Source of the DNA: Oxalobacteraceae bacterium
Lineage (GTDB): Bacteria; Pseudomonadota; Gammaproteobacteria; Burkholderiales; Burkholderiaceae_D
Reading direction: 5' to 3'
DNA: 64,000 bases
Assembly (NCBI GenBank): GCA_025352145.1
Contig: JANXTY010000018.1
Coordinates: forward strand, 1 to 64,000
The notes beneath the pieces were generated by a model. The model was not told the DNA's origin and made no database searches. It saw only the letters and a list, made by a program, of their open reading frames with translations. Below are positions 35,499-51,932 of the stretch, one piece after another. The translations under genes and the position numbers were made by a program. Every line of letters starts with the position of its first letter. Within the stretch, counting starts at the first letter, position 1.

Positions 35499-36482
35499 AT
35501 GAACGATCAACAAAAAGACTGGATACAGAAATTTGCCGCATTCGGTAGCCTGTTGGCGCTGGGTGTGGTGTTCTCCCTAACGAGTGACGCATTCTTTTCC
35601 GTGAATAATGGGATGAGCGTCGCCTTGCAGGTGACTTCCATTGCATTTCTGGGGATAGGTGCGACCTGCGTCATCATCACTGGCGGCATTGACCTGAGCG
35701 TGGGATCCGTACTTGCTTTGGCAGGTGTCGCCGCTGCAATGACCGTGAAGGCAGGTATGCCGGTTCCGGTCGGAATGGTTGTCGGGCTGGTCGTCGGCGC
35801 TTTCTGCGGTTTATGCAATGGCTTATGCATCACGCATTTGAAACTGCCTCCATTTATTGCGACACTCGGCATGATGCTCGTTGCCCGTGGAGTGGCGCTC
35901 CAGATCACCGGCGCGCGTCCCGTATCGGGACTCCCGGAAGAATTCGGCACGCTGGGAAACGGTACGCTTTTTCGTATCGTGCGAGAAAGCAGCGGCCCCT
36001 TTCCTGATGTCGTGTTTCCAGGGATTCCTTATCCGGTATTGCTGATGACGGTACTTGCCATCGTAATTGCCATCATGCTTAACCGTACCACCTTCGGACG
36101 TCATATCTATGCCGTAGGCTCCAACGCTGAAGCAGCTCGTCTGTCTGGTGTTAAAGTGGCACGCGTTACCTTATGGACTTACGTTATTTCTGGCACGCTG
36201 GCTGGGCTGACAGGGTGCGTCCTGATGTCGCGCTTGGTGACGGCGCAACCCAACGAAGGCGTCATGTATGAACTCGATGCGATTGCAAGTGCAGTCATCG
36301 GCGGCACCTCGCTGATCGGCGGAATTGGCACCATTTCTGGCACGGTCATCGGCGCCTTTGTCATCGGCATTTTGCGCAACGGCCTGAATATGAATGGGGT
36401 CTCTAGTTTCGCGCAACAAATCGTCATCGGGCTCGTCATCCTGCTCACGGTCTGGATCGATCAGATGCGAAATCGACGTTAA
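35499..36482 (+). CDS. sugar ABC transporter permease (RbsC type)
   Basis: About 327 residues with eight or more hydrophobic segments; the conserved EAA-like loop of the family reads RTTFGRHIYAVGSNAEAARLSGVKV, and AIASAVIGGTSLIGGIGT is also typical of RbsC-like permeases. I prefer the ATG at 35499: GGAG lies seven bases upstream, whereas ATGs at 35406 and 35460 have no ribosome site and would add a polar N-terminus. The stop codon falls inside the left arm of a long palindrome. Confidence 0.92.
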   Translation: MNDQQKDWIQKFAAFGSLLALGVVFSLTSDAFFSVNNGMSVALQVTSIAFLGIGATCVIITGGIDLSVGSVLALAGVAAAMTVKAGMPVPVGMVVGLVVGAFCGLCNGLCITHLKLPPFIATLGMMLVARGVALQITGARPVSGLPEEFGTLGNGTLFRIVRESSGPFPDVVFPGIPYPVLLMTVLAIVIAIMLNRTTFGRHIYAVGSNAEAARLSGVKVARVTLWTYVISGTLAGLTGCVLMSRLVTAQPNEGVMYELDAIASAVIGGTSLIGGIGTISGTVIGAFVIGILRNGLNMNGVSSFAQQIVIGLVILLTVWIDQMRNRR

Positions 36483-36607
36483 GGCTACGCTGATTAAGTA
36501 TAGCGAGCGCACCGAGTTTGTACTGAGAAGCGCAGCCGTACGACTGTACGGTGAGCATCGCAAATGCAAAATCGGGGTGCGCAGTAACTTAATCAGCGTA
36601 GCCTTAA
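36479..36607. repeat. 129-bp imperfect palindrome between permease and binding-protein genes
   Basis: The outer arms are perfect 21-bp inverted repeats (36479-36499 and 36587-36607, starting TTAAGGCTACGCTGATTAAG). Inside, GCGCACC (36507-36513) pairs with GGTGCGC (36576-36582), and at the centre CCGTAC and GTACGG enclose GACT (36536-36551). The transcript could fold into one long branched hairpin. It resembles a REP/BIME-type or MITE-like interspersed element. Sited between permease and binding protein, it may stabilise or uncouple parts of the operon message. Confidence 0.85.
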
Positions 36608-36696
36608 GCCTTGATTGGAAAATGAAGCGGCTCGTCGAAATACAGCGTGGAGCACAAAAACAAGTGTCATCAATTCATTACAAACCGAGAGAACAT

Positions 36697-37656
36697 ATGA
36701 AAATCTTTAAAAAATTATCCTTCAGCCTACTGGCCAGCATGCTGACTTTATCTGCAAGCAGTACTGTCGCGTTCGCGGCGAATCGAGAAATTGCAGTGAT
36801 CGTCAAATCCGCCAATTCCAATTTTTGGCAAAACGTACAAAAAGGCGCTGCCGCTTCCATCAAGAAAGCCCAGGGTTATACCCTGTCTTTTCAGGGACCT
36901 GCATCCGAATCAGCCATCGCTGATCAGGTTAACATGGTGGAAAATGCGGTCAATAGGAAAGTAGCTGGCATCGTACTGGCCGCTTCCGATGCAGACGCCT
37001 TAATCCCCTCCATCAAAAAAGCATGGGAAGCAAAAATCCCGGTCGTCCTGATTGACTCCCAAATTTCTGACTCTGGAAAACAATATTACCAATCATTTTT
37101 GTCCACCGACAATGAGGCAGCAGGTGCCCTTTGTGCAAAAGAGCTGATCGCCAAAGTGGGCAAGACCGGCAAGATCGCAATCATGTCCTATGTTCCCGGC
37201 GCCGGGTCCGAGGTTGGACGGGTGGGTGGCTTTACGAAATATATCAATGCCAATTCAAAGCTGAAAATCATCGGCCCTTTCTATTCGCAGTCACAGATGG
37301 CTACGGCGTTGAATCAAACTACTGACGTGCTCACTTCACATCCCGACCTGGTAGGAATTTTCGGGGCCAATGAACCAACCGCCATCGGCATGGCACGTGC
37401 TGTCGCTCAAGCGGGAAAAGCAGGAAAAGTGACTGCGATTGGTTTTGATGGCAATCAAGATGAACAAGGATTTATCAAGGATGGCACCTTACATACCATC
37501 GCCGTTCAAGATTCCTACCAAATGGGTTTCCTGGGAGTGAAAACATTGATCAGTGTGATAGAAGGAAAAGCCGTGCCAAAATTTGTCAACACCGGTGTCT
37601 TCATGGTCAATAAGAAGAACATCGAGCAGCCCGAAGCCAAGAACGTATTGTATTAA
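36697..37656 (+). CDS. sugar ABC transporter substrate-binding protein (RbsB type)
   Basis: 319 residues with a signal peptide (about 1-27, ending VAFAAN). Periplasmic binding fold type I: EIAVIVKSANSNFWQNVQKGA, AGIVLAASDADALIPSIKKA, IPVVLIDSQI, FLSTDNEAAGALCAKEL, GFDGNQDEQGFIKDGT. The ligand cannot be read; from context L-fucose, L-galactose or a small pectin product is likely. The open frame begins farther up, but this ATG starts the signal peptide and has CGAGAGAA upstream. Separated from the permease gene by the long palindrome. Confidence 0.93.
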   Translation: MKIFKKLSFSLLASMLTLSASSTVAFAANREIAVIVKSANSNFWQNVQKGAAASIKKAQGYTLSFQGPASESAIADQVNMVENAVNRKVAGIVLAASDADALIPSIKKAWEAKIPVVLIDSQISDSGKQYYQSFLSTDNEAAGALCAKELIAKVGKTGKIAIMSYVPGAGSEVGRVGGFTKYINANSKLKIIGPFYSQSQMATALNQTTDVLTSHPDLVGIFGANEPTAIGMARAVAQAGKAGKVTAIGFDGNQDEQGFIKDGTLHTIAVQDSYQMGFLGVKTLISVIEGKAVPKFVNTGVFMVNKKNIEQPEAKNVLY

Positions 37657-37753
37657 GCAGCCCATCTTAAGCAGCCACTCGTTCTATTTTTCTCGAAAAA
37701 ATCGCGTGCATGAATGCATTTATCTACCGTGTGTGAATAATCAGGATTAAAAA

Positions 37754-38767
37754 ATGATGAAAAGTCTTGTTTGCGAAAAGCCAGGCATTCTCCGTATGGC
37801 ACAAAAACCTATGCCAGTACGCAAGCCCGATGAAGTGTTGATTCGCATCCGACGCGTCGGAATTTGTGGAACCGATATGCATATTTTTCAGGGCTCCCAG
37901 CCTTTTCTGGAGTACCCACGCGTGATGGGACATGAATTAGCAGGTGAAGTAGTGGAGGCACCACCTGCATCCAGACTAGCAGTCGGGGATGTAATCTACG
38001 TCATGCCGTATATGTCATGCGGAACATGTGTCGCTTGCAAAAAAGGGAAAACCAATTGCTGCGCCAAAATGCAGGTACTGGGCGTACACCGGGATGGCGG
38101 CCTCACTGAATATCTGTCCATTCCCGCGCAATTTGCATTCAAAACAGAGGGCATATCGCTCGACGATGCGGCCATGATCGAATTTCTGGCTATTGGCGCC
38201 CATGCAGTCCGGCGCGCTGCCATCGAACCCGGGCAAAAAACATTGGTTGTCGGTGCCGGTCCGATCGGTATGGCAACTGCGTTGTTTGCCCGCCTGCGGG
38301 GAGCGCAAGTGTGTGTATTGGATACCCGCGCAGACCGCCTTCAATTTTGTCGCGACGCTTTGCACGTTGCAAAAACCGTTGAAGTCGGGCCGGATGATAA
38401 GGAACAATTGGCCGAATTTACTCACCAGGATTTTTTCGATGCCGTATTTGATGCCACGGGAAATGCCCAGGCCATGAAGCGCGGCTTTGAATTTGTGGCG
38501 CACGGCGGCAGCTATATCCTGGTATCCATCGTACGAGATGAGATTTCTTTTTCCGATCCTGAATTTCATAAACGAGAAACCACTTTACTCGGTAGTCGCA
38601 ATGCGACAATCGAAGATTTCGAAGCGGTATTAACAGCAATGCGTGCCGGCTTGGTACCAACCAAGCTGCTCAACACACACCGCTCTACATTGGATGACCT
38701 TGCGGCTACTTTCCCACAATGGCTGCAACCATCGGCCGGCGTCATCAAAGCCATTGTCGAGTGCTGA
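37754..38767 (+). CDS. zinc-dependent medium-chain dehydrogenase, possibly L-galactonate 5-dehydrogenase (LgoD-like)
   Basis: 337 residues of the sorbitol/threonine dehydrogenase type. Catalytic zinc site: VGICGTDMHIF and MGHELAGEV; structural zinc Cys cluster CGTCVACKKGKTNCC; NAD-binding VVGAGPIGMATALFARLRGA. In E. coli a protein of this kind (YjjN/LgoD) oxidises L-galactonate to D-tagaturonate. The next gene is a tagaturonate-reductase-like protein and then KDG kinase, exactly the following steps, which makes that role attractive here. The assignment is from context; other polyols or aldonates are possible. Confidence 0.85.
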   Translation: MMKSLVCEKPGILRMAQKPMPVRKPDEVLIRIRRVGICGTDMHIFQGSQPFLEYPRVMGHELAGEVVEAPPASRLAVGDVIYVMPYMSCGTCVACKKGKTNCCAKMQVLGVHRDGGLTEYLSIPAQFAFKTEGISLDDAAMIEFLAIGAHAVRRAAIEPGQKTLVVGAGPIGMATALFARLRGAQVCVLDTRADRLQFCRDALHVAKTVEVGPDDKEQLAEFTHQDFFDAVFDATGNAQAMKRGFEFVAHGGSYILVSIVRDEISFSDPEFHKRETTLLGSRNATIEDFEAVLTAMRAGLVPTKLLNTHRSTLDDLAATFPQWLQPSAGVIKAIVEC

Positions 38768-38774
38768 TTCGATT

Positions 38775-39896
38775 ATGAATCCAATCCTGCAATTTGGCAC
38801 CAGCCGCTTTCTCCAGGCACATGCCGACCTGTTCATCAGCGAGGCGCTCCACCGAGGTGAAGCACTGGGTAACATCACGGTCGTTCAAACCAGCAACAAC
38901 ACGCAAAGCCTGCTGCGTGTGGCGGCCTTTAATCGCGCCGAAGGATATCCGGTGCGGATACGCGGCTGGCAAAATGGTGCTCCGTTCAACGCGGAACAAC
39001 ATGTTACCTCTGTCACCGAAGCACTACAGGCAGAGCGCGACTGGCCTGTGTTGCTAGAACGCATTGCCAAGCATGTTCAGGTCATTATTTCCAATACGGG
39101 TGATCAGGGTTACGCCCTGTCCGAGAGGGACCATGCCGCGTGCCTGACCAGCCCAAGCGCTCCAGTCGGTTTTCCTGCCAAACTGCTGACGCTGTTGTAT
39201 GCGCGTTATCAGCATAACGCTGCGCCTATTACTCTCTTTCCCTGCGAGCTGGTCACACGTAATGGCGATGTCCTGCGCGGATTAATCTGCACGCTGGCGC
39301 GGCAATGGAATGTAAGCAGCGCATTTTTGACCTATCTGGAGCGTGATTGCATTTGGGTGAACTCACTTGTCGATCGCATTGTGTCAGAGCCGCTTGATCC
39401 GATTGGCGCCGTTGCGGAACCCTACGCGCTTTGGGCAATAGAACAACAGCCCGGAATGACGCTGCCGTGCCATCATCCAAGCATGATTGTCACTGACAAT
39501 CTGGAACGCTATGAGCGGCTCAAGTTGTTTCTGCTTAATCTGGGGCATACCTATATGGCCGATCAATGGCTTGTAAACGCTCGTTCGGCGGATGAAACGG
39601 TGCTGCAAGCCATGTCCAATCCTCGACTGTCTTCGGAACTGGACAACGTATGGCAAGAAGAGGTGTTACCTGTCTTCGCAGCACTGGGCGAAGATGCGAT
39701 TGCACGTGCATATTTGGAGCAGGTTAAAGAACGTTTTCGCAACCCTTTCCTCGCACATCGCCTGGCAGACATCGCTCAAAACCATCGCGAAAAAAAGCAA
39801 CGGCGCTTCAAACCGGTAGTGGCGTTAACGGAGAAACTAGGTCTCCCCATCAAACAACCGCGATTACGTGCCGCGCTTGCTGGAGATAATCGATGA
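38775..39896 (+). CDS. mannitol dehydrogenase-family oxidoreductase, tagaturonate reductase (UxaB)-like
   Basis: 373 residues, shorter than E. coli UxaB (about 480). Family marks: ILQFGTSRFLQAHADLFI at the N-terminus (nucleotide site), IISNTGDQGYAL, FPAKLLTLLYARY, LFPCELVTRNGDVL, LVDRIVSEPLD, and LKLFLLNLGHTYMA with the Lys-x5-Asn-x2-His catalytic pattern. UxaB reduces D-tagaturonate to D-altronate with NADH. Start at 38775, eight bases after the preceding gene; the longer open frame overlaps that gene. Overlaps a 14-bp triple repeat at its stop codon. Confidence 0.83.
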   Translation: MNPILQFGTSRFLQAHADLFISEALHRGEALGNITVVQTSNNTQSLLRVAAFNRAEGYPVRIRGWQNGAPFNAEQHVTSVTEALQAERDWPVLLERIAKHVQVIISNTGDQGYALSERDHAACLTSPSAPVGFPAKLLTLLYARYQHNAAPITLFPCELVTRNGDVLRGLICTLARQWNVSSAFLTYLERDCIWVNSLVDRIVSEPLDPIGAVAEPYALWAIEQQPGMTLPCHHPSMIVTDNLERYERLKLFLLNLGHTYMADQWLVNARSADETVLQAMSNPRLSSELDNVWQEEVLPVFAALGEDAIARAYLEQVKERFRNPFLAHRLADIAQNHREKKQRRFKPVVALTEKLGLPIKQPRLRAALAGDNR

Positions 39897-39932
39897 GAGA
39901 CCCACGATGAGAGACCCACGATGAGAGACCCG
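39891..39932 (+). repeat. three tandem copies of a 14-bp unit at a gene junction
   Basis: The unit CGATGAGAGACCCA occurs at 39891-39904, 39905-39918 and, with one final change, 39919-39932. The first copy contains the stop of the uxaB-like gene; the last supplies GAGAG seven bases before the start of the kinase. Each copy offers an ATG and a GAGAG, so copy number could tune coupling between the two genes. Confidence 0.95.
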
Positions 39933-39934
39933 CT

Positions 39935-40873
39935 ATGAAAGGCCAATTCTGGTCGCTGGGCGAATGCATGCTCGAAATGCAAAATAGCACTAGCGATACA
40001 TTCACGACAGCGGCAGCCGGCGACACGTATAACGCGGCCGTCTATCTGAAACGGATTCTACCCGCAGCCGACGTGCGTTATGTAAGTGCGTTGGGTAACG
40101 ATCCCATCAGCCAGCGAATTCGTATGCAAGTGCGTGTTCATAACATCGATGACTCACTCATTGCAGCTTTACCCGAGCGACTGCCCGGCCTGTATTTAAT
40201 AGAAAATGATCCCCAAGGCGAAAGGCGGTTTCATTATTGGCGTCAAAACTCTGCAGCCCGCGACATGCTCAGTGGAAGCCATTTACAAAAAATAATTTCC
40301 GCCCTCCCTGATTGCGGCGCATTGCTATTCACCGGCATTACTTTAGCCATTTTAGATCAGTCCCGACGTGAGACATTACTTAGAATCGCCAGTGAAATTC
40401 GTCAGCAGGGTGGCTGGGTGATTGTCGATAATAATTATCGCCCTTCCCTTTGGGCGTTGGACGATCCCGGTTATTGGTTGTCAAGAGCCATAGATGTTAG
40501 CACCCACGCCTTGCTCGGTTTTGACGACGAGGCTGCCTTATTTGCCGACGTTACTCCCGATGCCGTGATTAATCGTATTCGCGCACGTAATCGTGACGTT
40601 GAAATTATCATCAAGTTAGGCGCTTCCGGTTGCCTGGTAGCGCCACCTGGTGAGGCATCCATTCACGTATCGGCAATGGCAGTTCCCGTTGTAGATACTA
40701 CTGCAGCAGGAGATAGCTTCAACGGCGCATACTTGGCGGCCCGCATTTTTGGCCTGACGCCGCTAGCATCGGCCGAACTGGCATGCCGGCTGGCAGAGCG
40801 CGTCGTGGGGAAAGTGGGGGCGATCATTCCCGCGAATGCGATGGCCGATTTAGTGTTAGTCCCCGCCGTGTAA
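39935..40873 (+). CDS. kdgK: PfkB-family sugar kinase, 2-dehydro-3-deoxygluconokinase-like
   Basis: 312 residues of the ribokinase/PfkB family. SLGECMLEM at the N-terminus and AAAGDTYNAAVYLKR (substrate site), FHYWRQNSAARDML (typical of KDG kinases), and the anion-hole/base motif VDTTAAGDSFNGAYL with the catalytic Asp. It would phosphorylate KDG to KDPG, which an aldolase outside the window would split. It follows the uxaB-like gene after the 14-bp repeats. Confidence 0.88.
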   Translation: MKGQFWSLGECMLEMQNSTSDTFTTAAAGDTYNAAVYLKRILPAADVRYVSALGNDPISQRIRMQVRVHNIDDSLIAALPERLPGLYLIENDPQGERRFHYWRQNSAARDMLSGSHLQKIISALPDCGALLFTGITLAILDQSRRETLLRIASEIRQQGGWVIVDNNYRPSLWALDDPGYWLSRAIDVSTHALLGFDDEAALFADVTPDAVINRIRARNRDVEIIIKLGASGCLVAPPGEASIHVSAMAVPVVDTTAAGDSFNGAYLAARIFGLTPLASAELACRLAERVVGKVGAIIPANAMADLVLVPAV

Positions 40874-41054
40874 CCCAACGTAGTCATGCAAAATAAAACG
40901 AATCAGGACTTAGGCAAAAACACCCCCGCAAGGCCGGACGGGGAAGGCAATACGCTTGCAGAACAAATAGGCACATCTATAGACACCCCCCGGCTGGGGC
41001 GATTTTACGTAAGTCTTACCAATAAAATGTTAACGCCATTTACTTCGTGCTCTC

Positions 41055-42023
41055 ATGGCGATCTACTCTTACAAGAGCGCATTGTCCAGACAGGCCCCGC
41101 TAAATCCCATGTCAAAACCCCCTACACTCTACAAACGGACGACCAACCTGTTATTGACCTTGATCGCCGAAAAAATCGCGGTGGGCGACGTCCTGCCCTC
41201 CGAACAATTCTTGGCGACAGCGTGTCATTCGAGCCGAACCGTGGTACGCAATGTCATCGCTTATTTGCACACGCGTCAGATAATCAATGGCCTCGCACAA
41301 CGAGAAATTGTCCGAGCGCCGATTGCCGAGGATTATTTCGATGTGGCCGAATTACAATCGGGGTCACAACGTATTCAACATGTCATGATGGAGCGGGTCT
41401 TCCAAAGCGACATGCAGCCGGGGGCGGAATTTTCAGAAGTAGAATTGGCGCGCGAAGCCGGAACAAGTACGGTGAGCGTGCGAGAGTTCCTCATCGGGTT
41501 TTCGCGCTTTGGCCTGATCGAGAAAAAACCGCAAGGGGGATGGCGCTTGTGTGCGTTCGACCTGTCGTTTGCGAAAGAATTAGCCGACATGCGGCAAATG
41601 TTCGAGATCACGGCGATCGAGCATTGTTGCAGCCTGGGCCCATCCGATCCAGTCTATCTGGAACTCCACCGTCTGATTGCCAAACACGAAAAACTGGAGC
41701 CCAAAATAAAAACGCGCTACGGAGAATTTCCCACCCTCGACCGCGAATTTCATACCTTTCTGATCGGCTTACTCAACAATCGATTTGCTCAGGATTTTTA
41801 CGATATCGTTTCCTTTGTTTTTCACTATCACTATCAGTGGGACAAACGCGAAGAAATGGAACGCAACAACTTCGCGTTGCAAGAACATCTCGCCATACTG
41901 CGCGCGTTGGCGACACGCAACTTGGATCAAGCGCTGCATTTAATGCGCAACCATTTGGATTCCGCCCGCGCATCGCTGATGAAATCGATCAGCACCCGCA
42001 AGCAACATCCGGTATTGCGCTAA
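41055..42023 (+). CDS. GntR/FadR-type regulator with two winged-helix domains and an FCD domain
   Basis: 322 residues. A first GntR-like winged helix lies at about 25-90 (IAVGDVLPSEQFLATACHSS, RTVVRNVIAYLHTRQI), and a second at about 106-165 (QPGAEFSEVELAREAGTSTV, SVREFLIGFSRFGLIEKK), followed by an all-helical FCD ligand domain (170-305) with likely metal ligands in DREFHTF, EHLAIL and MRNHLD. Normal family members have a single winged helix and about 230 residues. It lies between kdgK and the split dehydratase and probably controls the locus. The start may be the ATG at 41109 instead. Confidence 0.85.
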   Translation: MAIYSYKSALSRQAPLNPMSKPPTLYKRTTNLLLTLIAEKIAVGDVLPSEQFLATACHSSRTVVRNVIAYLHTRQIINGLAQREIVRAPIAEDYFDVAELQSGSQRIQHVMMERVFQSDMQPGAEFSEVELAREAGTSTVSVREFLIGFSRFGLIEKKPQGGWRLCAFDLSFAKELADMRQMFEITAIEHCCSLGPSDPVYLELHRLIAKHEKLEPKIKTRYGEFPTLDREFHTFLIGLLNNRFAQDFYDIVSFVFHYHYQWDKREEMERNNFALQEHLAILRALATRNLDQALHLMRNHLDSARASLMKSISTRKQHPVLR

Positions 42024-42146
42024 AGGCTCCATATTTTAGGACAGGGAAATTTAGGGCGGGAAAACGATGGAGACAGTCGCTGCATGACGAACCGACATTT
42101 TCGATATTTACTTTATAAAATTGATCCAATTTAAGGAGAGTACCGC

Positions 42147-42479
42147 ATGGTGACTTCATCCCAGACGACGCAGGCGACAGGCGTATTACTCATGGCCGAG
42201 CAAGACAACTGTCTTATCGCTCGTTCTGCATTGCACATAGGTGACATCGTGTTGATCGATGCGCGTCCCGTAATACTTACGCAGAACATCGACATCGGCC
42301 ACAAACTCGCACGCCGTGCGCTCGCCATTGGTGACAAAGTGCTGCGCTATGGCGCACCGATTGGCAGCGTCACTCACGCCATCGCAATCGGCGAGCATAT
42401 TCACACACACAATTTAGAGAGCGATTACATTCCGACCTACACCCTGAGTGGTGAAGGCCATCATTTTTTAGAAAGGTAA
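42147..42479 (+). CDS. UxaA-family dehydratase, small (SAF-domain) subunit
   Basis: 110 residues forming a SAF domain, the equivalent of the N-terminal part of E. coli altronate dehydratase: NIDIGHKLARRALAIGDKVLRYG, APIGSVTHAIAIGEHIHTHNLES. GGAG lies upstream of the ATG at the correct distance. The large subunit follows after five bases. In the Campylobacter fucose locus the UxaA-like protein is likewise split into two genes. Together the two should dehydrate an aldonate (D-altronate or L-fuconate) at C2-C3 using a metal. Confidence 0.9.
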   Translation: MVTSSQTTQATGVLLMAEQDNCLIARSALHIGDIVLIDARPVILTQNIDIGHKLARRALAIGDKVLRYGAPIGSVTHAIAIGEHIHTHNLESDYIPTYTLSGEGHHFLER

Positions 42480-42484
42480 TCCCC

Positions 42485-43732
42485 ATGCAAACGAGTGTGA
42501 ATACAAGCGTTCATGCCAACGTAAAGACCCCTTCAATTTCCGGCTATTTACGCGCAGATGGCCGTAAAGGGATACGCAATATTGTCGTCGTCGCTTACAT
42601 GGTGGAGTGCGCGCATCACGTAGCACGGCATGTGGTCAACGCATTTCCTGGTCAGGCAGTGCATCTGATCGGCTTTGCCGGATGCTTCCCCAACGAATAC
42701 GCCGATCAAGTCATGGGGAAGCTGGCAACGCACCCCAATGTCGGCGCAGTGTTGCTGGTATCTCTGGGCTGTGAAGGATTTAATAAACGGGGACTAGCCG
42801 AATTGATTCAAAACAGCGGCCGTCCAGTACATACCATCACGATTCAGGAAAACCACGGCACGCGCACCAGCGTCAAAAGCGGTGTTGAATGGGTCCAATG
42901 GGCACTCGACACCCTGGAGCAACAGCCACGGGTAGCGATGGGGCTGGACGAATTGGTGGTCGCCACCATTTGCGGCGGATCGGACAGTACGAGCGGCATT
43001 ACCGCTAACCCCGCCGTCGGGCGTGCATTTGATATGCTGGTTGAAGCTGGCAGCGCCTGTATTTTTGAAGAAACAGGAGAACTGGTCGGTTGCGAATATC
43101 ACATGAAGAACCGCGCCGTGTCGCCCGAACTAGGCGATGCGATTGTCAAGACGGTCGAGAAAGCGGCGAAGTATTACACCATCATGGGCCACGGAAGTTT
43201 TTCACCCGGCAATGCCGATGGTGGGTTGACTACGCAAGAAGAAAAATCCCTGGGCGCCTACGCCAAAAGCGGGGCATCGGAAATCAGCGGCATTCTAAAG
43301 CCTGGTGATCAAGCTCCTCCCGGCGGCTTGTATCTACTCGATGTAGTACCTGATGGCGAACCCCGTTTCGGCTTCCCTAATATTTCCGACAATGCCGAAA
43401 TAGTCGAGCTCATTTCTTGCGGAGCGCACATTACCTTGTTTACCACGGGACGCGGATCGGTCGTGGGCTCGGCGATTTCGCCCGTGATTAAAGTCTGCGC
43501 CAATCCGCACACCTATACACAGCTATCGGAAGACATGGACATCAACGCTGGGCGCATTCTCACTGGCGACGCCACACTCGATGAAGTCGGCACTGAAATT
43601 GTGACGATGATACGTGACGTTGCCAATGGGGCATTGAGTCAGTCCGAAGCATTGGGACATCAGGAATTTGTACTCACGTATAAACGTTTCGAGCCTTCCG
43701 GCCCGGGCTGTTTTCCCCTGCGTAAAGCCTGA
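42485..43732 (+). CDS. UxaA-family dehydratase, large subunit
   Basis: 415 residues matching the C-terminal catalytic part of altronate dehydratase: GYLRADGRKGIRNIVVVAYMVEC at the N-terminus, VSLGCEGFNKRGLAELI, TICGGSDSTSGITANPAVG, FEETGELVGCEYHM, GHGSFSPGNADGGLTTQEEKSLGAYAKSG, TTGRGSVVGSAISPVIKVCAN. Pairs with the SAF subunit five bases upstream. D-altronate and L-fuconate have the same configuration at C2 to C4, so a shared dehydratase for both is chemically sensible. Downstream genes favour L-fuconate, upstream ones D-altronate. Confidence 0.9.
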   Translation: MQTSVNTSVHANVKTPSISGYLRADGRKGIRNIVVVAYMVECAHHVARHVVNAFPGQAVHLIGFAGCFPNEYADQVMGKLATHPNVGAVLLVSLGCEGFNKRGLAELIQNSGRPVHTITIQENHGTRTSVKSGVEWVQWALDTLEQQPRVAMGLDELVVATICGGSDSTSGITANPAVGRAFDMLVEAGSACIFEETGELVGCEYHMKNRAVSPELGDAIVKTVEKAAKYYTIMGHGSFSPGNADGGLTTQEEKSLGAYAKSGASEISGILKPGDQAPPGGLYLLDVVPDGEPRFGFPNISDNAEIVELISCGAHITLFTTGRGSVVGSAISPVIKVCANPHTYTQLSEDMDINAGRILTGDATLDEVGTEIVTMIRDVANGALSQSEALGHQEFVLTYKRFEPSGPGCFPLRKA

Positions 43733-43800
43733 TGGTAATGCGCAGTCAGAAGTAACGGTAACCACAGCACTAACAATTTTCATCTTTTTTGATAGCCCTT

Positions 43801-44850
43801 ATGCTCGCTACAGACTCTATTGAACTACCCCGCAGCAATCTCAAGCTCACCGCATTAGGCATGGGCTGCGCCATCATCGGCGGCTTATATCGCGCCACCC
43901 GTGAAGAAGATGCGCGTGCCGCCGTGGATGAGGCTTGGGAACTTGGATTACGCTATTTCGATACCGCACCCTACTACGGGTTCACCTTGTCCGAACATCG
44001 GCTCGGCGCGGCTTTGCGCAAAAGGCCTCGTCAGGATTACGTGATCAGCACTAAGGTCGGACGCCTGATGAAGCCGGATGCGTCCGTCAAACCCGGCGAA
44101 AACGATTGGGCAACGCCGTTGCCGTTCCGTCCTGTGTACGACTATACCTACGATGCCATCATGCGGTCGCACGAAGACAGTTTGCAACGCTTGGGATTGG
44201 CACACGTCGACATCTTGTTTGTGCATGATATCGGCCGCATGACGCATGGCGACCAGCATATGCACTATTGGAAACAGCTAACGACTGGAGGCGGATTTAA
44301 AGCGCTGGACGAACTGCGCAACAGCGGTCAAGTCGCCGCCATCGGACTAGGCGTGAACGAATGGGAAATCGTCGTAGACAGCATGCAAGAAATCGACCTC
44401 GATTGCACCCTGTTAGCGGGCCGCTATACCTTGCTAGAGCAGACAAGCCTGTCACCTTTGCTCGACGCTTGCGAACGCGCCGGTAATGCTATCGTCATTG
44501 GCGGCCCATTCAATTCAGGCATTCTGGTGGGTAATCGAAAATTTAATTATCAGGATGCCCCGCCTGAGATCATCAGTCGAGTCGAAAAACTGGAAACGGT
44601 CTGCCGCGCGTTTTCGGTACCGCTGCCCGCTGCCGCCTTGCAGTTCCCAATGGCGCATCCGGCGGTCGTGTCCTGCATTCCCGGCGGTAGAGATGTAGCA
44701 CAGCTGCGCCAAAATGCCGCATGGTTTGACCTGCCGATACCGGACGAATTGTGGGTCACGCTTAAAACCCAAGGATTAGTGGACGAGCGCGCACCGCTGC
44801 CAGTATCTTCGCCATCGCTCTCACCCCTCCCCTCCGCAGGAACAGCGTGA
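43801..44850 (+). CDS. aldo/keto reductase, L-fucose (L-galactose) 1-dehydrogenase-like
   Basis: 349 residues of the AKR family of the D-threo-aldose/L-fucose dehydrogenase group: LTALGMGCAIIGGLYRA, catalytic Tyr in YFDTAPYYGFTLSEHRLG, Lys in VISTKVGRLM, VDILFVHDIGR, and the coenzyme site CIPGGRDVAQLRQN. Enzymes of this group oxidise L-fucose to L-fucono-lactone and generally also take L-galactose, which has the same ring stereochemistry. I use the ATG at 43801; a TTG at 43789 is the only longer choice. Its stop overlaps the lactonase start. Confidence 0.86.
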   Translation: MLATDSIELPRSNLKLTALGMGCAIIGGLYRATREEDARAAVDEAWELGLRYFDTAPYYGFTLSEHRLGAALRKRPRQDYVISTKVGRLMKPDASVKPGENDWATPLPFRPVYDYTYDAIMRSHEDSLQRLGLAHVDILFVHDIGRMTHGDQHMHYWKQLTTGGGFKALDELRNSGQVAAIGLGVNEWEIVVDSMQEIDLDCTLLAGRYTLLEQTSLSPLLDACERAGNAIVIGGPFNSGILVGNRKFNYQDAPPEIISRVEKLETVCRAFSVPLPAAALQFPMAHPAVVSCIPGGRDVAQLRQNAAWFDLPIPDELWVTLKTQGLVDERAPLPVSSPSLSPLPSAGTA

Positions 44851-45674
44851 TGCGGATCGATGCTCATCAACATTTCTGGCTGCTAGAAAAACGGGCGGGC
44901 GCATGGCCGCCGCCTGAGCTGGCAGCGATTTACCGCGACCACCTGCCGCCCCAACTACAACCGCTCTTGGTACAGCATCATATCGATGCAACCGTGCTAG
45001 TGCAGTCCATGCCAAACGAAGACGATACGCACTTCCTGCTGAACTTGGCCGCACATCATTCATTCATTCAAGCCGTGGTCGGTTGGGTCGATCTGAAGAC
45101 AGCGGATGCAGCGCAGCGCATCGATGTCCTGGCACAAAATCCAAAGCTCAAAGGATTGCGGCCGATGCTGCAAGATCTGCCCGAAGATAACTGGATTGCC
45201 GATCCTGCCCTGGCACCTGCAATCGAAGCGATGCAACGCCATCGGCTCAGTCTGGACGCGCTAGTCTTGCCGCACCATTTGCCCGCGCTACTGGTCTTCG
45301 CAAACCGGTTTCCATCCATGCCGATTGTGATCGATCATGCCGCCAAACCCCCTATCGCAGCAAGAGAATTACAACCCTGGAAAGATGATATCGCTCGCTT
45401 GGCGGCACTGCCGCAAGTTTATTGCAAGCTGTCGGGCATGGTGAACGAGGCAGAACCGCAATGGAAAACTGTCGATCTTCAACCCTATGTTGACCACCTA
45501 TTGAACAGCTTCGGCCCGCAGCGTGTGCTGTGGGGCAGTGACTGGCCTGTACTCAATCTGGTGGCAGATTATGGGCGTTGGATCGATGCCACCGAGCTAC
45601 TGCTTGCCAATTTGACTCCGCAAGAAAAGCAAAAGGTACTGGGCCTGAATGCGCAGCATTTTTATCGAATTTAA
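44850..45674 (+). CDS. amidohydrolase-2 family lactonase, L-fuconolactonase-like
   Basis: 274 residues of the COG3618 group, which includes L-fucono-1,5-lactonase and L-rhamnono-lactonase. TIM-barrel marks: MRIDAHQHFWLLE (His-x-His), VGWVDLKTADAAQ, KGLRPMLQDLPEDNW, MPIVIDHAAKPP, VYCKLSGMVNEAEP, RVLWGSDWPVLNLV (Asp). It would open the lactone made by the AKR next door to the free aldonate. ATG overlaps the AKR stop codon (TGATG), so the two are coupled; a GTG one codon up is possible. Confidence 0.9.
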   Translation: MRIDAHQHFWLLEKRAGAWPPPELAAIYRDHLPPQLQPLLVQHHIDATVLVQSMPNEDDTHFLLNLAAHHSFIQAVVGWVDLKTADAAQRIDVLAQNPKLKGLRPMLQDLPEDNWIADPALAPAIEAMQRHRLSLDALVLPHHLPALLVFANRFPSMPIVIDHAAKPPIAARELQPWKDDIARLAALPQVYCKLSGMVNEAEPQWKTVDLQPYVDHLLNSFGPQRVLWGSDWPVLNLVADYGRWIDATELLLANLTPQEKQKVLGLNAQHFYRI

Positions 45675-45695
45675 TAAAGAAAAGGTAGTAGCGTC

Positions 45696-46025
45696 ATGCA
45701 AAGAATGGGAATGGTAATCGGCATCGATCCAGAAAAAATTGGCGAATACAAAATCTTGCACGCCGCCGTCTGGCCGCAGGTCTTATCCACTTTAAAAAAA
45801 GCGAACGTACAGAACTACAGTATTTTTTTACGCGAGCCAGAGAATTTGCTGTTTGGCTATTGGGAGTATCTCGGCAGCGATTTCGACGCCGACATGGCAG
45901 CCATAGCAGAGGATGCCGAAACACGGCGCTGGTGGACCTTCTGCAGCCCCTGTCAGGTGCCGCTCGCCTCGCGCGCAGAAGGTGAACATTGGGCCATGAT
46001 GCCGCAAATATTTTACATGCCATGA
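45696..46025 (+). CDS. rhaM: L-rhamnose/L-fucose mutarotase (RhaM/DUF718 family)
   Basis: 109 residues. Interconverts the anomers of a 6-deoxy-hexose so that the dehydrogenase gets the form it prefers. Family marks: IDPEKIGEYKILHAAVWPQVL, NYSIFLREPENLLFGYWEY, AEDAETRRWWTFCSPCQVPL, EGEHWAMMPQIFYMP. Members named RhaM act on L-rhamnose; homologues in fucose loci act on L-fucose, which the neighbours suggest here. AAAGG lies upstream. Followed by an 80-bp palindromic element. Confidence 0.92.
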   Translation: MQRMGMVIGIDPEKIGEYKILHAAVWPQVLSTLKKANVQNYSIFLREPENLLFGYWEYLGSDFDADMAAIAEDAETRRWWTFCSPCQVPLASRAEGEHWAMMPQIFYMP

Positions 46026-46056
46026 ATTTGGCGGCCTTCATATACTTTAAAAAGCC

Positions 46057-46136
46057 AACTATTGAGCGCAGGGGAAGGTGCAGTTTTAGCCCTACTCCCG
46101 ATCACAGGAAAGGGCCATACCCCTCGCTCAATAGTT
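46057..46136. repeat. 80-bp imperfect palindrome between mutarotase and SDR genes
   Basis: Outer arms AACTATTGAGCG (46057-46068) and CGCTCAATAGTT (46125-46136) are perfect complements and continue as AGGGG / CCCCT. Inner GCCCT and AGGGC also pair. It would form a long hairpin in the message between two catabolic genes. The sequence is unrelated to the element at 36479. Confidence 0.85.
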
Positions 46137-46176
46137 ACAAAAAACGTGCATTATTTTTTACCATGGGGATTAAAAG

Positions 46177-46932
46177 ATGACTGGAAGATTGCAAGGAAAG
46201 ATCGCGCTCGTTACGGCGGCAGGTCAAGGCATTGGACGCGCCACAGTAGAAGCCTATCTGCGTGAAGGCGCGCAAGTGATCGCCACCGATATCAATGAAA
46301 CCCATCTGGCCGCGCTGCATTCACTGCCGGGGTGCAAGGTTCGCCCGCTCGATGTGACCGATCCCCAAGCCATTTCGGCATTGGCGAGCGAACTTGGCAA
46401 GATCGATATTTTGTTCAACTGCGCAGGTTACGTCGATAGCGGTTCCATTCTTGATTGCAGTGAAGACGCGTGGGATTTCTCGTTCAATATCAATGTGCGG
46501 TCTATGTATCGTTTAATTCGGGCGTTCTTGCCGGGCATGATCGAGCAAGGCTCAGGTTCCATCATCAATATGTCTTCCGTAGCGTCGAGCATCAAGGGAG
46601 TGTCTAATCGCTTTGTGTATACCACGACAAAAGCAGCGGTCATCGGCATGACTAAATCGGTCGCTTTTGACCTCGTCACACAAGGGGTTCGCTGCAATGC
46701 AATTTGCCCGGGTACAGTCGAGTCGCCGTCACTACAAAATCGGATCGAAATACAAGCGAAAGAAAGCGGGCAAAGTGTCGAAACCGTGTTTGCCGCTTTC
46801 GCCGCACGCCAGCCGCTAGGCCGCCTGGGGTGCACAACAGAGATCGCTGCGCTAGCTGTGTATCTGGGTTCGGATGAATCTGCATTTACTACCGGCACAA
46901 CACAGATTATTGATGGCGGCTGGTCAAACTAA
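46177..46932 (+). CDS. SDR oxidoreductase, 2-keto-3-deoxy-L-fuconate 4-dehydrogenase-like
   Basis: 251 residues, classical short-chain dehydrogenase. Nucleotide site VTAAGQGIGRATVEAYLREGA with Asp after ATDIN, NCAGYVDSG, catalytic Ser in NMSSVASSIKG and YTTTK. In non-phosphorylative deoxyhexose routes an enzyme of this type oxidises 2-keto-3-deoxy-L-fuconate (or -rhamnonate) at C4 to the 2,4-diketo acid. The FAH-fold hydrolase that splits that product follows 27 bases later. The start has GGGGAT upstream. Confidence 0.87.
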   Translation: MTGRLQGKIALVTAAGQGIGRATVEAYLREGAQVIATDINETHLAALHSLPGCKVRPLDVTDPQAISALASELGKIDILFNCAGYVDSGSILDCSEDAWDFSFNINVRSMYRLIRAFLPGMIEQGSGSIINMSSVASSIKGVSNRFVYTTTKAAVIGMTKSVAFDLVTQGVRCNAICPGTVESPSLQNRIEIQAKESGQSVETVFAAFAARQPLGRLGCTTEIAALAVYLGSDESAFTTGTTQIIDGGWSN

Positions 46933-46959
46933 ATTTAACAAACTCTTCAAGGAAATAAA

Positions 46960-47826
46960 ATGAAATTAATGCGATATGGCACAAAAGGAAATGAGAAACC
47001 AGCTCTGATGGATGCGGACGGACAAGTACGATGCCTATCTGGTGTGATACCCGACATTACAGCGGCTATCTTAAGTTCCGACAATCTAAAACGCTTGGCA
47101 GCGCTAGACGTGAAAGCGCTGCCTGTGGTTTCCCAACCTGGACGCATTGCGCCACCCTACAGTGGTACTGGAAAATTTATCTGTGTTGGTTTGAACTATG
47201 CAGACCATGCTGCCGAATCAGGCATGGCCGTCCCTGCCGAGCCGGTATTATTCATGAAAGCAACCAGCGCTATTATCGGCTGCAACGACCCTGTCGTCCT
47301 CCCGCAAAATTCTATCAAAAGCGATTGGGAAGTAGAGCTAGGCGTCGTGATTGGCACAACAGCGAGATATGTGCCCGAAGCAAATGCAATGGAATATGTA
47401 GCTGGTTATTGCGTCGTCAATGATTTGTCCGAACGTGAATATCAACTCGAGCGAGGCGGACAATGGGATAAGGGAAAAGGCTGCGACACCTTCGGCCCAA
47501 TCGGTCCTTGGTTGGTAACTACAGATGAAGTAGCGGATCCACAGAACCTGGACTTATGGCTTGAAGTTAATGGCAAAAAATATCAGCAAGGGACTACTAG
47601 AACAATGGTGTTTACGGTCGCGCATCTGGTGAGCTACATCAGCCGGTTCATGACTCTTTATCCGGGTGACATCATCAGCACCGGTACACCGCCGGGCGTT
47701 GGTCTTGGTCAGAAGCCTTCGCCTGTTTTCCTGAAACCGGGAGACCAGATGCGTCTGGGCATCACGGGGCTGGGTGTGCAAAGCCAAACTACGCATGCGT
47801 GGAATCCTGCGTTGATCGACGGGTAA
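46960..47826 (+). CDS. fumarylacetoacetate hydrolase-family protein, 2,4-diketo-3-deoxy-L-fuconate hydrolase-like
   Basis: 288 residues, FAH fold. Marks: KFICVGLNYADHAAESG, EPVLFMKATSAIIG, SDWEVELGVVIGT (metal Glu), GYCVVNDLSEREYQLE, KGCDTFGPIGPWLVT, DIISTGTPPGVGLGQ. It would cleave 2,4-diketo-3-deoxy-L-fuconate (or -rhamnonate) to pyruvate and L-lactate, finishing the deoxyhexose branch without phosphorylation. The order AKR, lactonase, mutarotase, SDR, FAH is a known non-phosphorylative set. AAGGAA lies upstream of the start. Confidence 0.9.
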   Translation: MKLMRYGTKGNEKPALMDADGQVRCLSGVIPDITAAILSSDNLKRLAALDVKALPVVSQPGRIAPPYSGTGKFICVGLNYADHAAESGMAVPAEPVLFMKATSAIIGCNDPVVLPQNSIKSDWEVELGVVIGTTARYVPEANAMEYVAGYCVVNDLSEREYQLERGGQWDKGKGCDTFGPIGPWLVTTDEVADPQNLDLWLEVNGKKYQQGTTRTMVFTVAHLVSYISRFMTLYPGDIISTGTPPGVGLGQKPSPVFLKPGDQMRLGITGLGVQSQTTHAWNPALIDG

Positions 47827-47948
47827 ATAAAGCGTAATGGGGTGTGAACCATTATTTTGAAAAAATCTTTGAAAATAATGGTCAACTATTTCGCTACACT
47901 ATTCGCATTCAAATTTGATCGATTTTTCCTAGGATGAGGACTGACGCA

Positions 47949-49505
47949 ATGACCCTTTCCCACCTGCTTCAACGATTTTTTGTCATCTCGTCCGCATTCG
48001 TATTGACAACGACGGTTTCACACGCAGCGGTGCAATGCCCGCCGATTTTTTCCGATCACATGGTCATTCAACGTGAGATGGCGGTTCCGGTTTGGGGAAA
48101 CGCGGCACCCGACGAAGAAGTCACCGTAGAGTTTGCTGGACAGAGGAAAACAGTACGCGCCGCTGCCGACGGCCGCTGGCAAATACGCCTGGCACCCCTC
48201 GCAACCAGTACGGCACCACGCATTTTCAAAGTACACGCCTCCAATGAACTCACTTTTTCAGATGTCTTGGTCGGCGAAGTCTGGCTCGCTTCCGGCCAAT
48301 CGAATATGGAAAAGCCGATCGGTGGACAACGCGGGCAAAAACCAACCGACAATGCAGAAGCCGAAATTCGCGATGCCGATCACCCATTGCTCCGATTATT
48401 CCAGGTGCCGCGTAACGGCATATCGCAGCCAGACGACCTCACCCAGCAATGGCTGGCCAGTACGCCAGAAGCGGTAGAAAAAATGCATTTCTCGGCAGCG
48501 GGTTATTTCTTCGGACGCGAATTACTGCGTGATCTGAAGGTGCCGATTGGCATCATTCACACCAGTTTCGGCGGTACCCGCATTGAGCCATGGACACTGG
48601 CCGAAGGTTTCGCTGCTGTACCGAGCCTGAAGGATTTTGCAACCGCAGCCGCGACCGGCCAAAAATTTAACAGCACGATTGGTGCCAGTCTGTACCACTC
48701 GATGGTGGAACCGCTGGTGCCTTACGCGCTGCGCGGCTTTATCTGGTACCAGGGCGAGTCTAATCTCATGAATATCGAATCGGCGATCTACACGGATAAA
48801 ATGCGCGCGCTCATCGGCGGCTGGCGCACTGCTTGGGACCGTACCGATGCACCATTTTATTATGTACAGATCGCACCTTACCGTTACTCAGTGCGCAAAT
48901 CAGCACGGCCACTATCGGTCGAGGCGCTGCCCATGTTCTGGGAAGCGCAAACACGGGCACTTGCCATTCCCCACACCGGCATGACGGTCATTACCGACCT
49001 GGTAACAGACCTGGACGACATTCATCCAACCAACAAGCGTGACGTCGGTCGCCGCCTCGCTGCGCTCGCGCTGAGCGATACCTATGGACGCACTGGCATC
49101 GCCACCTCCGGCCCGGTCTTCACGCACGCGACTACGCATGGCACTGAGTTTGAAATTTCATTTGCCCATGCAGAAGGACTTGCTAGCCGCGATGGGCAAG
49201 CTCTCACTGGCTTCATCATCGCCGGTGCAGACCGGCAGTTCGTGCCCGCCACAGCATTCGTGCACGAAGAAAAAATAATCCTCACTGCGCCCGAAGTAGC
49301 GCTGCCGGTCGCCGCCCGCTTCGCCTGGCATGAGACAACCATGACCAACCTGATCAACGGTGTCGGCCTGCCCGCATGGTCGTTTCGCACCGACGATTGG
49401 CCGGTGGATATTACTGGGCCGGCCACACCGGCAGACCTGCCACCTCCACCCAAACCGATAGAGACTGTGCCCTCGTCTGTGGTGCCGACAACCCCCATCC
49501 ATTGA
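47949..49505 (+). CDS. secreted sialate O-acetylesterase-family (SASA) carbohydrate esterase
   Basis: About 518 residues with signal peptide (ending SHAAVQ). Marks: PPIFSDHMVIQREMAVPVWG (N-terminal beta domain), VWLASGQSNMEKPIGG with the catalytic Ser, GTRIEPWTLAEGF, YQGESNLMN and DDIHPTNKRDVGRRLA with the Asp and His. Despite the name, enzymes of this group in plant-polysaccharide loci remove acetyl groups from pectin, xylan or xyloglucan. Start at 47949 has GAGG upstream; 47934 is also in frame. The C-terminus is rich in Pro. Confidence 0.88.
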   Translation: MTLSHLLQRFFVISSAFVLTTTVSHAAVQCPPIFSDHMVIQREMAVPVWGNAAPDEEVTVEFAGQRKTVRAAADGRWQIRLAPLATSTAPRIFKVHASNELTFSDVLVGEVWLASGQSNMEKPIGGQRGQKPTDNAEAEIRDADHPLLRLFQVPRNGISQPDDLTQQWLASTPEAVEKMHFSAAGYFFGRELLRDLKVPIGIIHTSFGGTRIEPWTLAEGFAAVPSLKDFATAAATGQKFNSTIGASLYHSMVEPLVPYALRGFIWYQGESNLMNIESAIYTDKMRALIGGWRTAWDRTDAPFYYVQIAPYRYSVRKSARPLSVEALPMFWEAQTRALAIPHTGMTVITDLVTDLDDIHPTNKRDVGRRLAALALSDTYGRTGIATSGPVFTHATTHGTEFEISFAHAEGLASRDGQALTGFIIAGADRQFVPATAFVHEEKIILTAPEVALPVAARFAWHETTMTNLINGVGLPAWSFRTDDWPVDITGPATPADLPPPPKPIETVPSSVVPTTPIH

Positions 49506-49541
49506 ACGGGTCTGAATAAAATTTTAAAACGATTGCTCCTC

Positions 49542-51932
49542 ATGAAAACTTTATTTCGCTCTGTGCTCTATCTCATGTTCGCCTTCGTTGCGACTGTTAC
49601 CACTGCAGCCGACCTGACGCTGCGTTACGACAAACCAGCGCCAGACACCCCGCAAGGCTGGGAACGCGAAGCACTACCCATCGGCAATGGCCGCATCGGT
49701 GCAATGATTTTCGGCCAGCCAGCGCGCGAACGGGTTCAGTTCAACGACATCACACTCTGGACCGGCGACGACAAAGCTATGGGAGCGTATCAGCCTTTTG
49801 GCGACGTCTTCATCAACCTACCGGGCCACGATACTGGCACAAGCAATTATGTCCGTGAACTCGATCTTGAACAAAGCGTGCATCGCGTCAGCTATGTAAG
49901 GGAAGGGATTCAATTTCACCGCGAAACCTTTGCCAGCCATCCGGCGCAAGTAATCGTCATGCGCCTGACGGCGAATAAACCCGGCAGCTATACGGGTTCC
50001 ATCGAGCTGACTGATATGCATGAGGCACGCATCACCGCTTCTGGCAATCGCATCTATTCCACCGGCTCACTAGCCGGTTTTATCCAACCAGCACGCCGTC
50101 GTGGAAATCAAACCCCACCACCACTACCGGCTCCCTCCACCAATGTGATGGATTACGCCGGCCAAGTGCACGTAGTAAACGAAGGTGGCAAGCTCACGCT
50201 CGATGGCAACAAAATTACCTTCACCGATTGCAATACACTCACCCTCATTCTCGGCGCCGGGACGAGTTACAGCTTTGATCCGGCCAAACGATTCCAGGGC
50301 GATCACCCACTGCCTCGCGTTTCGGCACAAGTGAACGCAGCGATGGCCCGCCCGTGGACAGAACTCATGGCTGAACATCAAAACGATTTTCATGCACTGT
50401 TTGGGCGGGTCGCCCTCAACCTCGGCGAAGCTACGCCACAACGCCGTGCGCTGAGCACCGACAAGCGCATTGAGACCTACACGGCCGAAGGAAACGATCC
50501 CGGACTGGAAGCACAATTTTTTCAGTTTGGCCGCTACCTGCTTATCTCCAGCTCCCGTGATTCACTCCCTGCCAACCTGCAAGGGCTCTGGAACAATAGC
50601 CTCACACCACCCTGGAATTCTGATTACCATACCAACATCAACATTCAGATGAATTATTGGCCGGCCGAACCCGCTAACCTCCGCGAATCGGCTCACCCTT
50701 TCTTTAATTTCGTACGAGGTGTAACGCCGATCTACCGCCAGCTCATTGCTGAAACAGCTGCACGTGCTGCCCCACATCCGCGCGCAGCAAGCGCCTCACC
50801 CGACCCCAATGGACGCCTCCGTCCACTTGAGGAAACCTTTCTTACGGCCACCGGCAAACCGGTGCGCGGCTGGACGGTGCGTACCGAGTCGAATCCTTTC
50901 GGCGCTACAGGCTACACGTGGAATAAAACTGCCAACGCCTGGTACGCCCAGCATTTCTGGGAACATTACGCATTCACTCAAGACAAGGAATTTCTCCGCA
51001 CCGTCGCCTATCCAATGATGAAAGAGGCCTGCCAATTCTGGCAGGACAGCCTGAAGGTTTTACCTGATGGCCGCCTCGTCGCCCCGAATGGCTGGTCACC
51101 GGAACACGGCCCCATCGAAGATGGCATCACCTACGACCAGGAAATCATCTGGGATTTATTCAACAATACTGTCGAAGCAGCCGATGCCCTGGGCACCGAC
51201 CAAATTTTCCGTAATCAAATCGCTGCCATGCGCGACAAACTCGCCGTGCCGCGCATCGGTAGTTGGGGACAAATACTCGAATGGCTGGATGAGAAAAAAG
51301 ATCCGATACTCGACACAGCAAGCGATACGCATCGCCATGTCTCCCATCTGTTCGCGCTGTTTCCCGGCCGCCAGATTTCACCCACCACAACCCCCGCGCT
51401 CGCAGCGGCAGCCCGCAAGACACTCGAAGGCCGCGGTGATGCAGGTACGGGCTGGTCTATGGCATGGAAAACGGCATACTGGGCTCGTCTGCAGGATGGC
51501 GATCATGCCTACAAAATGTTACAAGGCCAACTCGCCAAGCCCGGCGCCCGCGCCGCCCAGCAAACTGGCACCGGCACGGAGACCAACAACGCCGGCGGTA
51601 CTTACCAGAATATGTTTGATGCACATCCCCCCTTTCAGATCGACGGCAATTTCGGTGCCACCGCCGCCATCTGCGAAATGCTCGTGCAATCCCAGACTGG
51701 CGAAATCCATTTGCTCCCGGCCCTGCCTTCTGCCTGGGCAACCGGTTCTGTCAAAGGTCTACGTGCCCGCGGTGGATTTGAAATCGATCTCGCCTGGACG
51801 AACGGTAAACTCGCTACCGCAACGGTTCATTCTGTGGCAGGTTCCGGGGGCGGAAAAATCCGTTATGACGACAAAGTTATCGAACTCCACCTCAAACCGG
51901 GCGAATCAAAAACACTGGGGGGGAATTGGTAG
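49542..51932 (+). CDS. GH95-family alpha-L-fucosidase (or alpha-L-galactosidase)
   Basis: About 796 residues with a signal peptide (ending TVTTAAD). Marks: [65 protein letters not shown] (catalytic region), [61 protein letters not shown]95 removes alpha-1,2-linked L-fucose, and some members prefer L-galactose, from xyloglucan and pectin. It would feed sugars to the L-fucose/L-galactose route upstream. The ATG at 49542 starts the signal peptide. Confidence 0.92.

Follow-up and report, generated by a model that had tools for sequence, protein, structure and literature searches.

The non-phosphorylating route of L-fucose degradation is known from Herbaspirillum huttiense and Xanthomonas (PMC11199699), and the gene layout termed route 3 in H. 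huttiense and Paraburkholderia mimosarum comprises FucM, a dehydrogenase, a lactonase, a dehydratase, L-2-keto-3-deoxyfuconate (L-KDF) 4-dehydrogenase (L-KDFDH) and a hydrolase (PMC6336799, PMC11199699). Degradation of L-galactose has been described for the lguABCDEF genes of Luteolibacter LG18, via L-galactonate, D-tagaturonate, D-altronate, 2-dehydro-3-deoxygluconate (KDG) and its 6-phosphate, KDPG (PMC12632266); that paper also cites this route in Bacteroides vulgatus (BVU_0219/BVU_0222). In E. coli, lgoTRD together with uxaB, uxaA, kdgK and eda accounts for the same reactions from L-galactonate on. Halomonas loci join lgoD, uxaA and uxaB with L-fucose/L-fuconate genes, and a similar L-galactonate locus occurs in Chromohalobacter (PMC5507952). 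Here we analyze a locus of an Oxalobacteraceae bacterium, located on the + strand at 33819-51932 of a 64,000-nucleotide stretch of contig JANXTY010000018.1 (hereafter, the window), that contains candidate genes for route 3 (set 2) next to LgoD-, UxaB- and KdgK-like genes (set 1).

We consider it likely, judging from homology and genome content, that this locus is a dual L-fucose/L-galactose operon with a common entry through an aldo-keto reductase (AKR) and a lactonase, an inversion at C5 and a common UxaA-type dehydratase. In this pathway, the ABC transporter and the L-fucose mutarotase would supply the AKR and the lactonase, which would accept both sugars and produce L-fuconate or L-galactonate. 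L-fuconate would be dehydrated by the heteromeric UxaA, oxidized at C4 by a short-chain dehydrogenase/reductase (SDR) and cleaved by an FAH-family hydrolase to pyruvate and L-lactate. L-galactonate would be converted by LgoD to D-tagaturonate and by the short UxaB to D-altronate, with C5 inverted; the same UxaA, predicted to recognize mainly C2-C4 of its substrate, would then produce KDG, from which KdgK and a chromosomal Eda would yield pyruvate and D-glyceraldehyde 3-phosphate. The inversion would be needed because the L-fucose route would otherwise lead from L-galactose to L-glycerate, presumably a dead end in these bacteria, and would presumably give a D-configured C3 product. We infer this rationale, as well as the activities, the common entry and the common dehydratase. 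The locus consists of the following genes:

33819-35390, 35406-36482 and 36694-37656, + strand: sugar ABC transporter, with ATPase, permease and binding protein, respectively (Pfam ABC_tran, BPD_transp_2, Peripla_BP_4)
37754-38767, + strand: putative LgoD-like Zn-dependent L-galactonate 5-dehydrogenase (LgoD match)
38772-39896, + strand: putative UxaB-like short tagaturonate reductase, 374 amino acids (Mannitol_dh domains)
39935-40873, + strand: KdgK-like 2-dehydro-3-deoxygluconokinase (NF052444)
41055-42023, + strand: GntR/FCD transcription regulator (Pfam GntR, FCD)
42147-42479, + strand: heteromeric UxaA-type dehydratase, small subunit (Pfam SAF)
42485-43732, + strand: heteromeric UxaA-type dehydratase, large subunit (Pfam GD_AH_second, GD_AH_C)
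43801-44850, + strand: AKR, candidate L-fucose/L-galactose 1-dehydrogenase (Pfam Aldo_ket_red)
44847-45674, + strand: candidate L-fucono/L-galactono-lactonase of the amidohydrolase type (NCBIfam, PDB 4dlf)
45696-46025, + strand: L-fucose mutarotase (PDB 7byu match)
46177-46932, + strand: SDR, predicted L-2-keto-3-deoxyfuconate 4-dehydrogenase (PDB 8y11/8xwk match)
46960-47826, + strand: FAH-family hydrolase, predicted L-2,4-diketo-3-deoxyfuconate/rhamnonate hydrolase (PDB 8gsr match)
47934-49505, + strand: SASA-family carbohydrate esterase (Pfam SASA)
49542-51932, + strand: GH95, alpha-L-fucosidase or alpha-L-galactosidase (Pfam GH95)

An earlier note, made from the sequence alone, placed both gene sets at 37754-47826; all its genes lie there on the + strand, with family assignments that agree with the domain and profile matches. 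That note bracketed the UxaA step as following D-altronate formation, although a UxaA-type dehydratase is encoded inside the locus, by two adjoining genes preceded by the GntR/FCD regulator. Spacing within the blocks is tight, with 4 bases between LgoD and UxaB, 38 between UxaB and KdgK, 5 between the two UxaA subunits and 27 between SDR and FAH, and the AKR and lactonase genes overlap by 4 bases; gaps are wider on either side of the regulator, and 151 bases separate mutarotase and SDR.

Identities of the two gene sets

The gene identities, their conservation and the complementation patterns across genomes were established by homology and genome content, with E-values and identities referring to single proteins; the co-occurrence statistics are uncorrected for relatedness of the genomes. 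The Zn-dehydrogenase aligns with E. coli LgoD over its full length (44% identity over 335 amino acids, 278 bits), compared to 32% and 142 bits for RspB. The best NCBIfam model for the reductase is tagaturonate reductase, at 210 bits and thus under the cut-off of 359; the protein is 26% identical to E. coli UxaB and about 110 residues shorter (374 vs 483 amino acids). The kinase shares 41% identity with E. coli KdgK and, at 276 bits (under the cut-off of 400), is the sole match to NF052444 in this genome, which encodes a KHG/KDPG aldolase on contig C24, immediately 3' of an Edd-like gene.

The distribution of UxaB-family reductases is as expected if LgoD makes D-tagaturonate. All genomes with LgoD that lack the short UxaB (G095 and those with loci L069, L076, L078, L080, L084 and L123) encode another reductase of this family. 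In five of these, from Massilia, Telluria and Janthinobacterium (L069, L076, L078, L080, L084), this reductase has 50-54% identity to E. coli UxaB, and its gene adjoins uxaA; in Asticcacaulis (L123), it is 28% identical, and the neighbouring gene has 53% identity to uxaA; and in G095, it clears the tagaturonate reductase cut-off, with 605 bits. Conversely, only 2 of the 20 genomes that have both LgoD and the short UxaB also carry a canonical UxaB (p 4e-5 to 6e-4).

Among the set 2 proteins, the mutarotase matches the L-fucose mutarotase 7byu at 183 bits, and YiiL and the rhamnose mutarotases at no more than 41 bits. The SDR matches PDB 8y11/8xwk at 349 bits; these entries presumably correspond to the H. 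huttiense L-KDFDH described in PMC11199699, as its residue numbering fits at an offset of 4. Arg148, Arg192, Arg214 and Trp252, which bind L-KDF in that enzyme (PMC11199699), are all conserved in the alignment. The FAH-family protein scores 344 bits against 8gsr, an L-2,4-diketo-3-deoxyrhamnonate hydrolase, the substrate of which is a single compound common to the L-fucose and L-rhamnose routes (PMC11199699). Matches of the entry enzymes are moderate: the solved proteins nearest to the AKR are L-galactose dehydrogenases (103 bits), whereas for the lactonase the top NCBIfam model is L-fucono-1,5-lactonase (222 bits, under the cut-off of 400) and the nearest structure is 4dlf (151 bits). Sequence and comparative genomics back the earlier note where it assigned set 1 to LgoD, UxaB and KdgK, set 2 to the non-phosphorylating L-fucose route, and the AKR and lactonase to an entry that both sugars may use. 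A joint locus in Massilia additionally contains an FMN-dependent dehydrogenase of the L-lactate dehydrogenase kind (L078:15253-16383), which fits L-lactate formation in the L-fucose branch.

The region upstream of the ABC transporter (24025-33529) encodes a PcRGLX rhamnogalacturonan lyase-like protein, GH88/GH105, tandem GDSL esterases and GH43, and is therefore a pectin-breakdown neighbourhood. Given that rhamnose is abundant in rhamnogalacturonan, these genes could favour the assignment of set 2 to L-rhamnose and of set 1 to pectin uronates, as could the similarity of the hydrolase to a diketo-rhamnonate hydrolase, even though its substrate arises from both sugars. We nonetheless regard this assignment as highly improbable. 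The rhamnose mutarotase match is only 35 bits, and the L-KDFDH residues of the SDR are retained; furthermore, L-fuconate, unlike L-rhamnonate, stereochemically suits a UxaA-type dehydratase. On these three grounds the L-rhamnose reading was rejected, and set 2 is assigned to the L-fucose route.

Galacturonate appears to be handled elsewhere in the genome. The second UxaA-family gene is GarD-like (65% identity to the E. coli protein) and adjoins a uronate dehydrogenase gene, a combination indicative of the oxidative galacturonate route; it is located on contig C29 (L004:11287-13722), where pectin-degrading genes are also found nearby. As this second gene is a GarD and no altronate dehydratase, set 1 was also rejected as a uronate module.

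Joint loci in related genomes

Among 146 sampled genomes of the family Oxalobacteraceae, 10 carry the LgoD-like gene and 9 the short UxaB; the large dehydratase subunit is likewise encoded in 9, all of which have LgoD (Fisher p = 1.5e-13 for LgoD with the dehydratase). When named genomes were searched with the large subunit as the query, 80 loci were recovered. Fifty of these, mostly from Burkholderiaceae, are of the L-fucose type, with the dehydratase, AKR, usually the lactonase, SDR and FAH, and have no LgoD or UxaB orthologue nearby; they often include another ABC transporter, and the system in the Paraburkholderia L-fucose loci is only 28-36% identical to that of the window. The transporter type found in the window is kept beside set 1 in L016, L017 and L228, whereas in Rhizobacter (L159) only the binding protein is. 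Joint loci are found in Janthinobacterium, Massilia, Duganella, Telluria and their relatives, and once in Asticcacaulis. The arrangement is no product of chance, given that several genera of the Oxalobacteraceae share the block and that its genes occur in at least three different orders. The position of the GntR/FCD regulator is conserved across related loci.

Three joint loci combine set 1 genes with only a part of set 2. L228 (genome G095) has the order ABC-LgoD-GntR-UxaA-AKR-lactonase-mutarotase, without SDR and FAH. L017 (G111) contains LgoD, UxaB, dehydratase, AKR and mutarotase, with SDR and FAH located elsewhere in the genome. L016 (G116) lacks SDR and FAH and carries truncated KdgK and lactonase genes; in this genome, SDR and FAH belong to a second locus, along with an enolase-type L-fuconate dehydratase (549 bits against 1yey) and a further ABC system. 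Together, these patterns point to a role of the locus dehydratase in L-galactose degradation. The SDR and FAH homologues of G111 (L057:8322-10092) accompany an MFS transporter, without a dehydratase, apart from the joint locus. In L016, which comes from a single-contig genome, about 89 of 312 residues remain of KdgK (10566-10832) and about 156 of 275 of the lactonase (14686-15144); these truncations, along with the loss of SDR and FAH, suggest partial decay of the operon.

The same loci bear on the possibility that set 2 serves L-fucose only and the neighbouring set 1 handles external L-galactonate or other uronates as a module of its own, such that transport and regulation would be common but the AKR, lactonase and dehydratase would not. 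External L-galactonate is indeed the substrate of E. coli LgoD, Halomonas imports both L-galactonate and L-fuconate as acids via TRAP transporters (PMC5507952), and in G077, the tenth genome with LgoD, this gene lies together with the short UxaB, a full-length UxaA and a PfkB kinase, set 2 being missing. Apart from G077, every LgoD in the sampled family genomes is accompanied by the two-subunit dehydratase. Moreover, LgoD is tied to sugar-level entry both in L228, where it accompanies AKR, lactonase and mutarotase but no SDR or FAH, and in Pseudoduganella lurida (G132), where LgoD and the dehydratase are unlinked and LgoD sits with the lactonase and GH95. We therefore consider separate use of the two sets unlikely.

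The two-subunit dehydratase and the fate of KDG

The only dehydratase in the locus consists of a small SAF subunit and a large GD_AH subunit, which adjoin in nearly all related loci, and is only 28% identical to E. coli UxaA. Three Janthinobacterium-type genomes with a joint locus (G047, G091 and G135, of genus g6, which is that of J. psychrotolerans G071) encode no other UxaA-family protein. L-fuconate dehydratases of the FucD kind are enolase-type enzymes; none of the MR/MLE-type enzymes encoded in the window's genome or in the three Janthinobacterium genomes is a close FucD-like match, ILVD/EDD dehydratases lying outside this survey. Because it is the sole dehydratase in the locus and the sole UxaA-family protein in three genomes, with no FucD-like enolase, the UxaA pair is probably the best candidate for both dehydrations, of L-fuconate and of D-altronate, as far as gene content indicates. 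In P. mimosarum, a heteromeric UxaA pair has been named L-fuconate dehydratase on gene context, and the related enzyme C785_RS13685 strongly favours D-arabinonate but also accepts D-altronate, L-fuconate and L-galactonate, all four having a common C2-C4 configuration (PMC6336799).

The large-subunit gene tree broadly tracks taxonomy and is compatible with the addition of LgoD and UxaB to an older L-fucose locus. Twelve active-site positions differ between the dehydratases of joint and L-fucose-only loci. These were rejected as a marker of the two types: they largely track phylogeny, and several also occur in Comamonadaceae-type loci without a nearby LgoD.

Several findings weigh against the dual-operon reading. 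C785_RS13685 is about 6,700-fold less efficient on D-altronate than on D-arabinonate (PMC6336799), so that broad use by a single UxaA is not assured. The mostly phylogenetic nature of the separating positions counts in the same direction, as does the inability of the Luteolibacter L-galactose dehydrogenase LguA to accept L-fucose (PMC12632266). Finally, most relatives of the locus either lack KdgK or have a truncated copy, which makes the last part of the L-galactose branch variable.

Among these relatives, G047, G091 and G135 retain LgoD, UxaB, UxaA, SDR and FAH, with no KdgK match at E<=1e-20. These bacteria would have to dispose of KDG otherwise, for which L-KDFDH is a possible outlet: the H. 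huttiense enzyme acts on L-KDF at 7900, on L-2-keto-3-deoxygalactonate (L-KDGal) at 1480 and on D-KDG at 75 per min per mM (PMC11199699). The KdgK-less genomes and the latter two activities would also agree with a scheme in which both sugars pass through UxaA, SDR and FAH, such that L-galactonate, or KDG after C5 inversion, would end as pyruvate and glycerate and KdgK would be accessory. This scheme appears less likely still than separate use of the two sets, given that KdgK is intact and the only one in the window's genome, and that L228, L016 and L017 keep LgoD and UxaA in the absence of SDR and FAH.

Under the dual-operon reading, the branches that fork at the aldonate in the earlier note probably rejoin at once, with one dehydratase for L-fuconate and very likely D-altronate. 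We tentatively extend this to a more specific proposal, which may well not hold in full: a single heteromeric UxaA would serve L-fuconate and D-altronate, the L-galactose branch would amount to a C5-inverting shunt of two enzymes added to an L-fucose pathway, and the relatives without KdgK would also drain KDG via SDR and hydrolase to pyruvate and D-glycerate.

Surroundings of the locus and relation to described systems

GH95, which the earlier note saw as closing the locus and able to release either sugar, is present, but outside 37754-47826, behind the SASA esterase, and its sequence assigns it to neither L-fucose nor L-galactose. Its top PDB match is the FucOB fucosidase (545 bits), and it has His where BACOVA_03438 has Thr370, that is, it lacks the Thr associated with alpha-L-galactosidases. 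The Thr/His position does not fix specificity in GH95 (PMC8245568) and was discarded as a discriminator. No operator common to all loci emerged from inverted-repeat scans of the regions preceding set 1, the dehydratase and the ABC genes, and promoter and terminator scans gave signals no higher than those of shuffled sequences. At 22-1082 of the window, two overlapping frames resemble a transposase split by a frameshift, presumably of the IS630-like kind.

If the proposed pathway is correct, a pathway for a 6-deoxy sugar was widened to the hydroxylated parent sugar by the addition of only two enzymes, which together flip a single stereocentre, with the entry enzymes and the dehydratase reused and no new ones required, and the little-studied two-subunit UxaA dehydratases would have a dual function. 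It would also explain why bacteria that have only the L-fucose pathway do not necessarily grow on L-galactose. Campylobacter jejuni is an example: with L-fucose genes alone, its dehydrogenase is weak on L-galactose and there is no growth gain on this sugar (PMC6946681).

The view that no described operon joins the two branches does not hold, as Leyn et al. 2017 reported joint loci in Halomonas (PMC5507952). Those of Halomonas HL-48 and HL-93, and Csal_1738-1731 of Chromohalobacter salexigens, resemble the locus analyzed here in combining lgoD, uxaA and uxaB/uxaF with L-fucose/L-fuconate genes (COG0179, COG1028), but rely on TRAP uptake of acids and on FucD as the L-fuconate dehydratase (PMC5507952). 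Unlike Halomonas, the window encodes an ABC sugar transporter, AKR, lactonase, mutarotase and one heteromeric UxaA. The Luteolibacter lgu pathway likewise starts with an enzyme of the L-galactose dehydrogenase group, but no L-fucose branch is described for it, and LguA is inactive on L-fucose (PMC12632266). Route 3 loci, about 50 in our scan and mostly from Burkholderiaceae, differ from the window in having no LgoD/UxaB module, whereas the E. coli pathway starts at the acid level and has scattered genes, a single-chain UxaA and a UxaB of 483 amino acids, compared to 374 in the window. Both routes were thus already known; what is apparently new is a sugar-level entry common to the two branches and the use of one heteromeric UxaA instead of two dehydratases.

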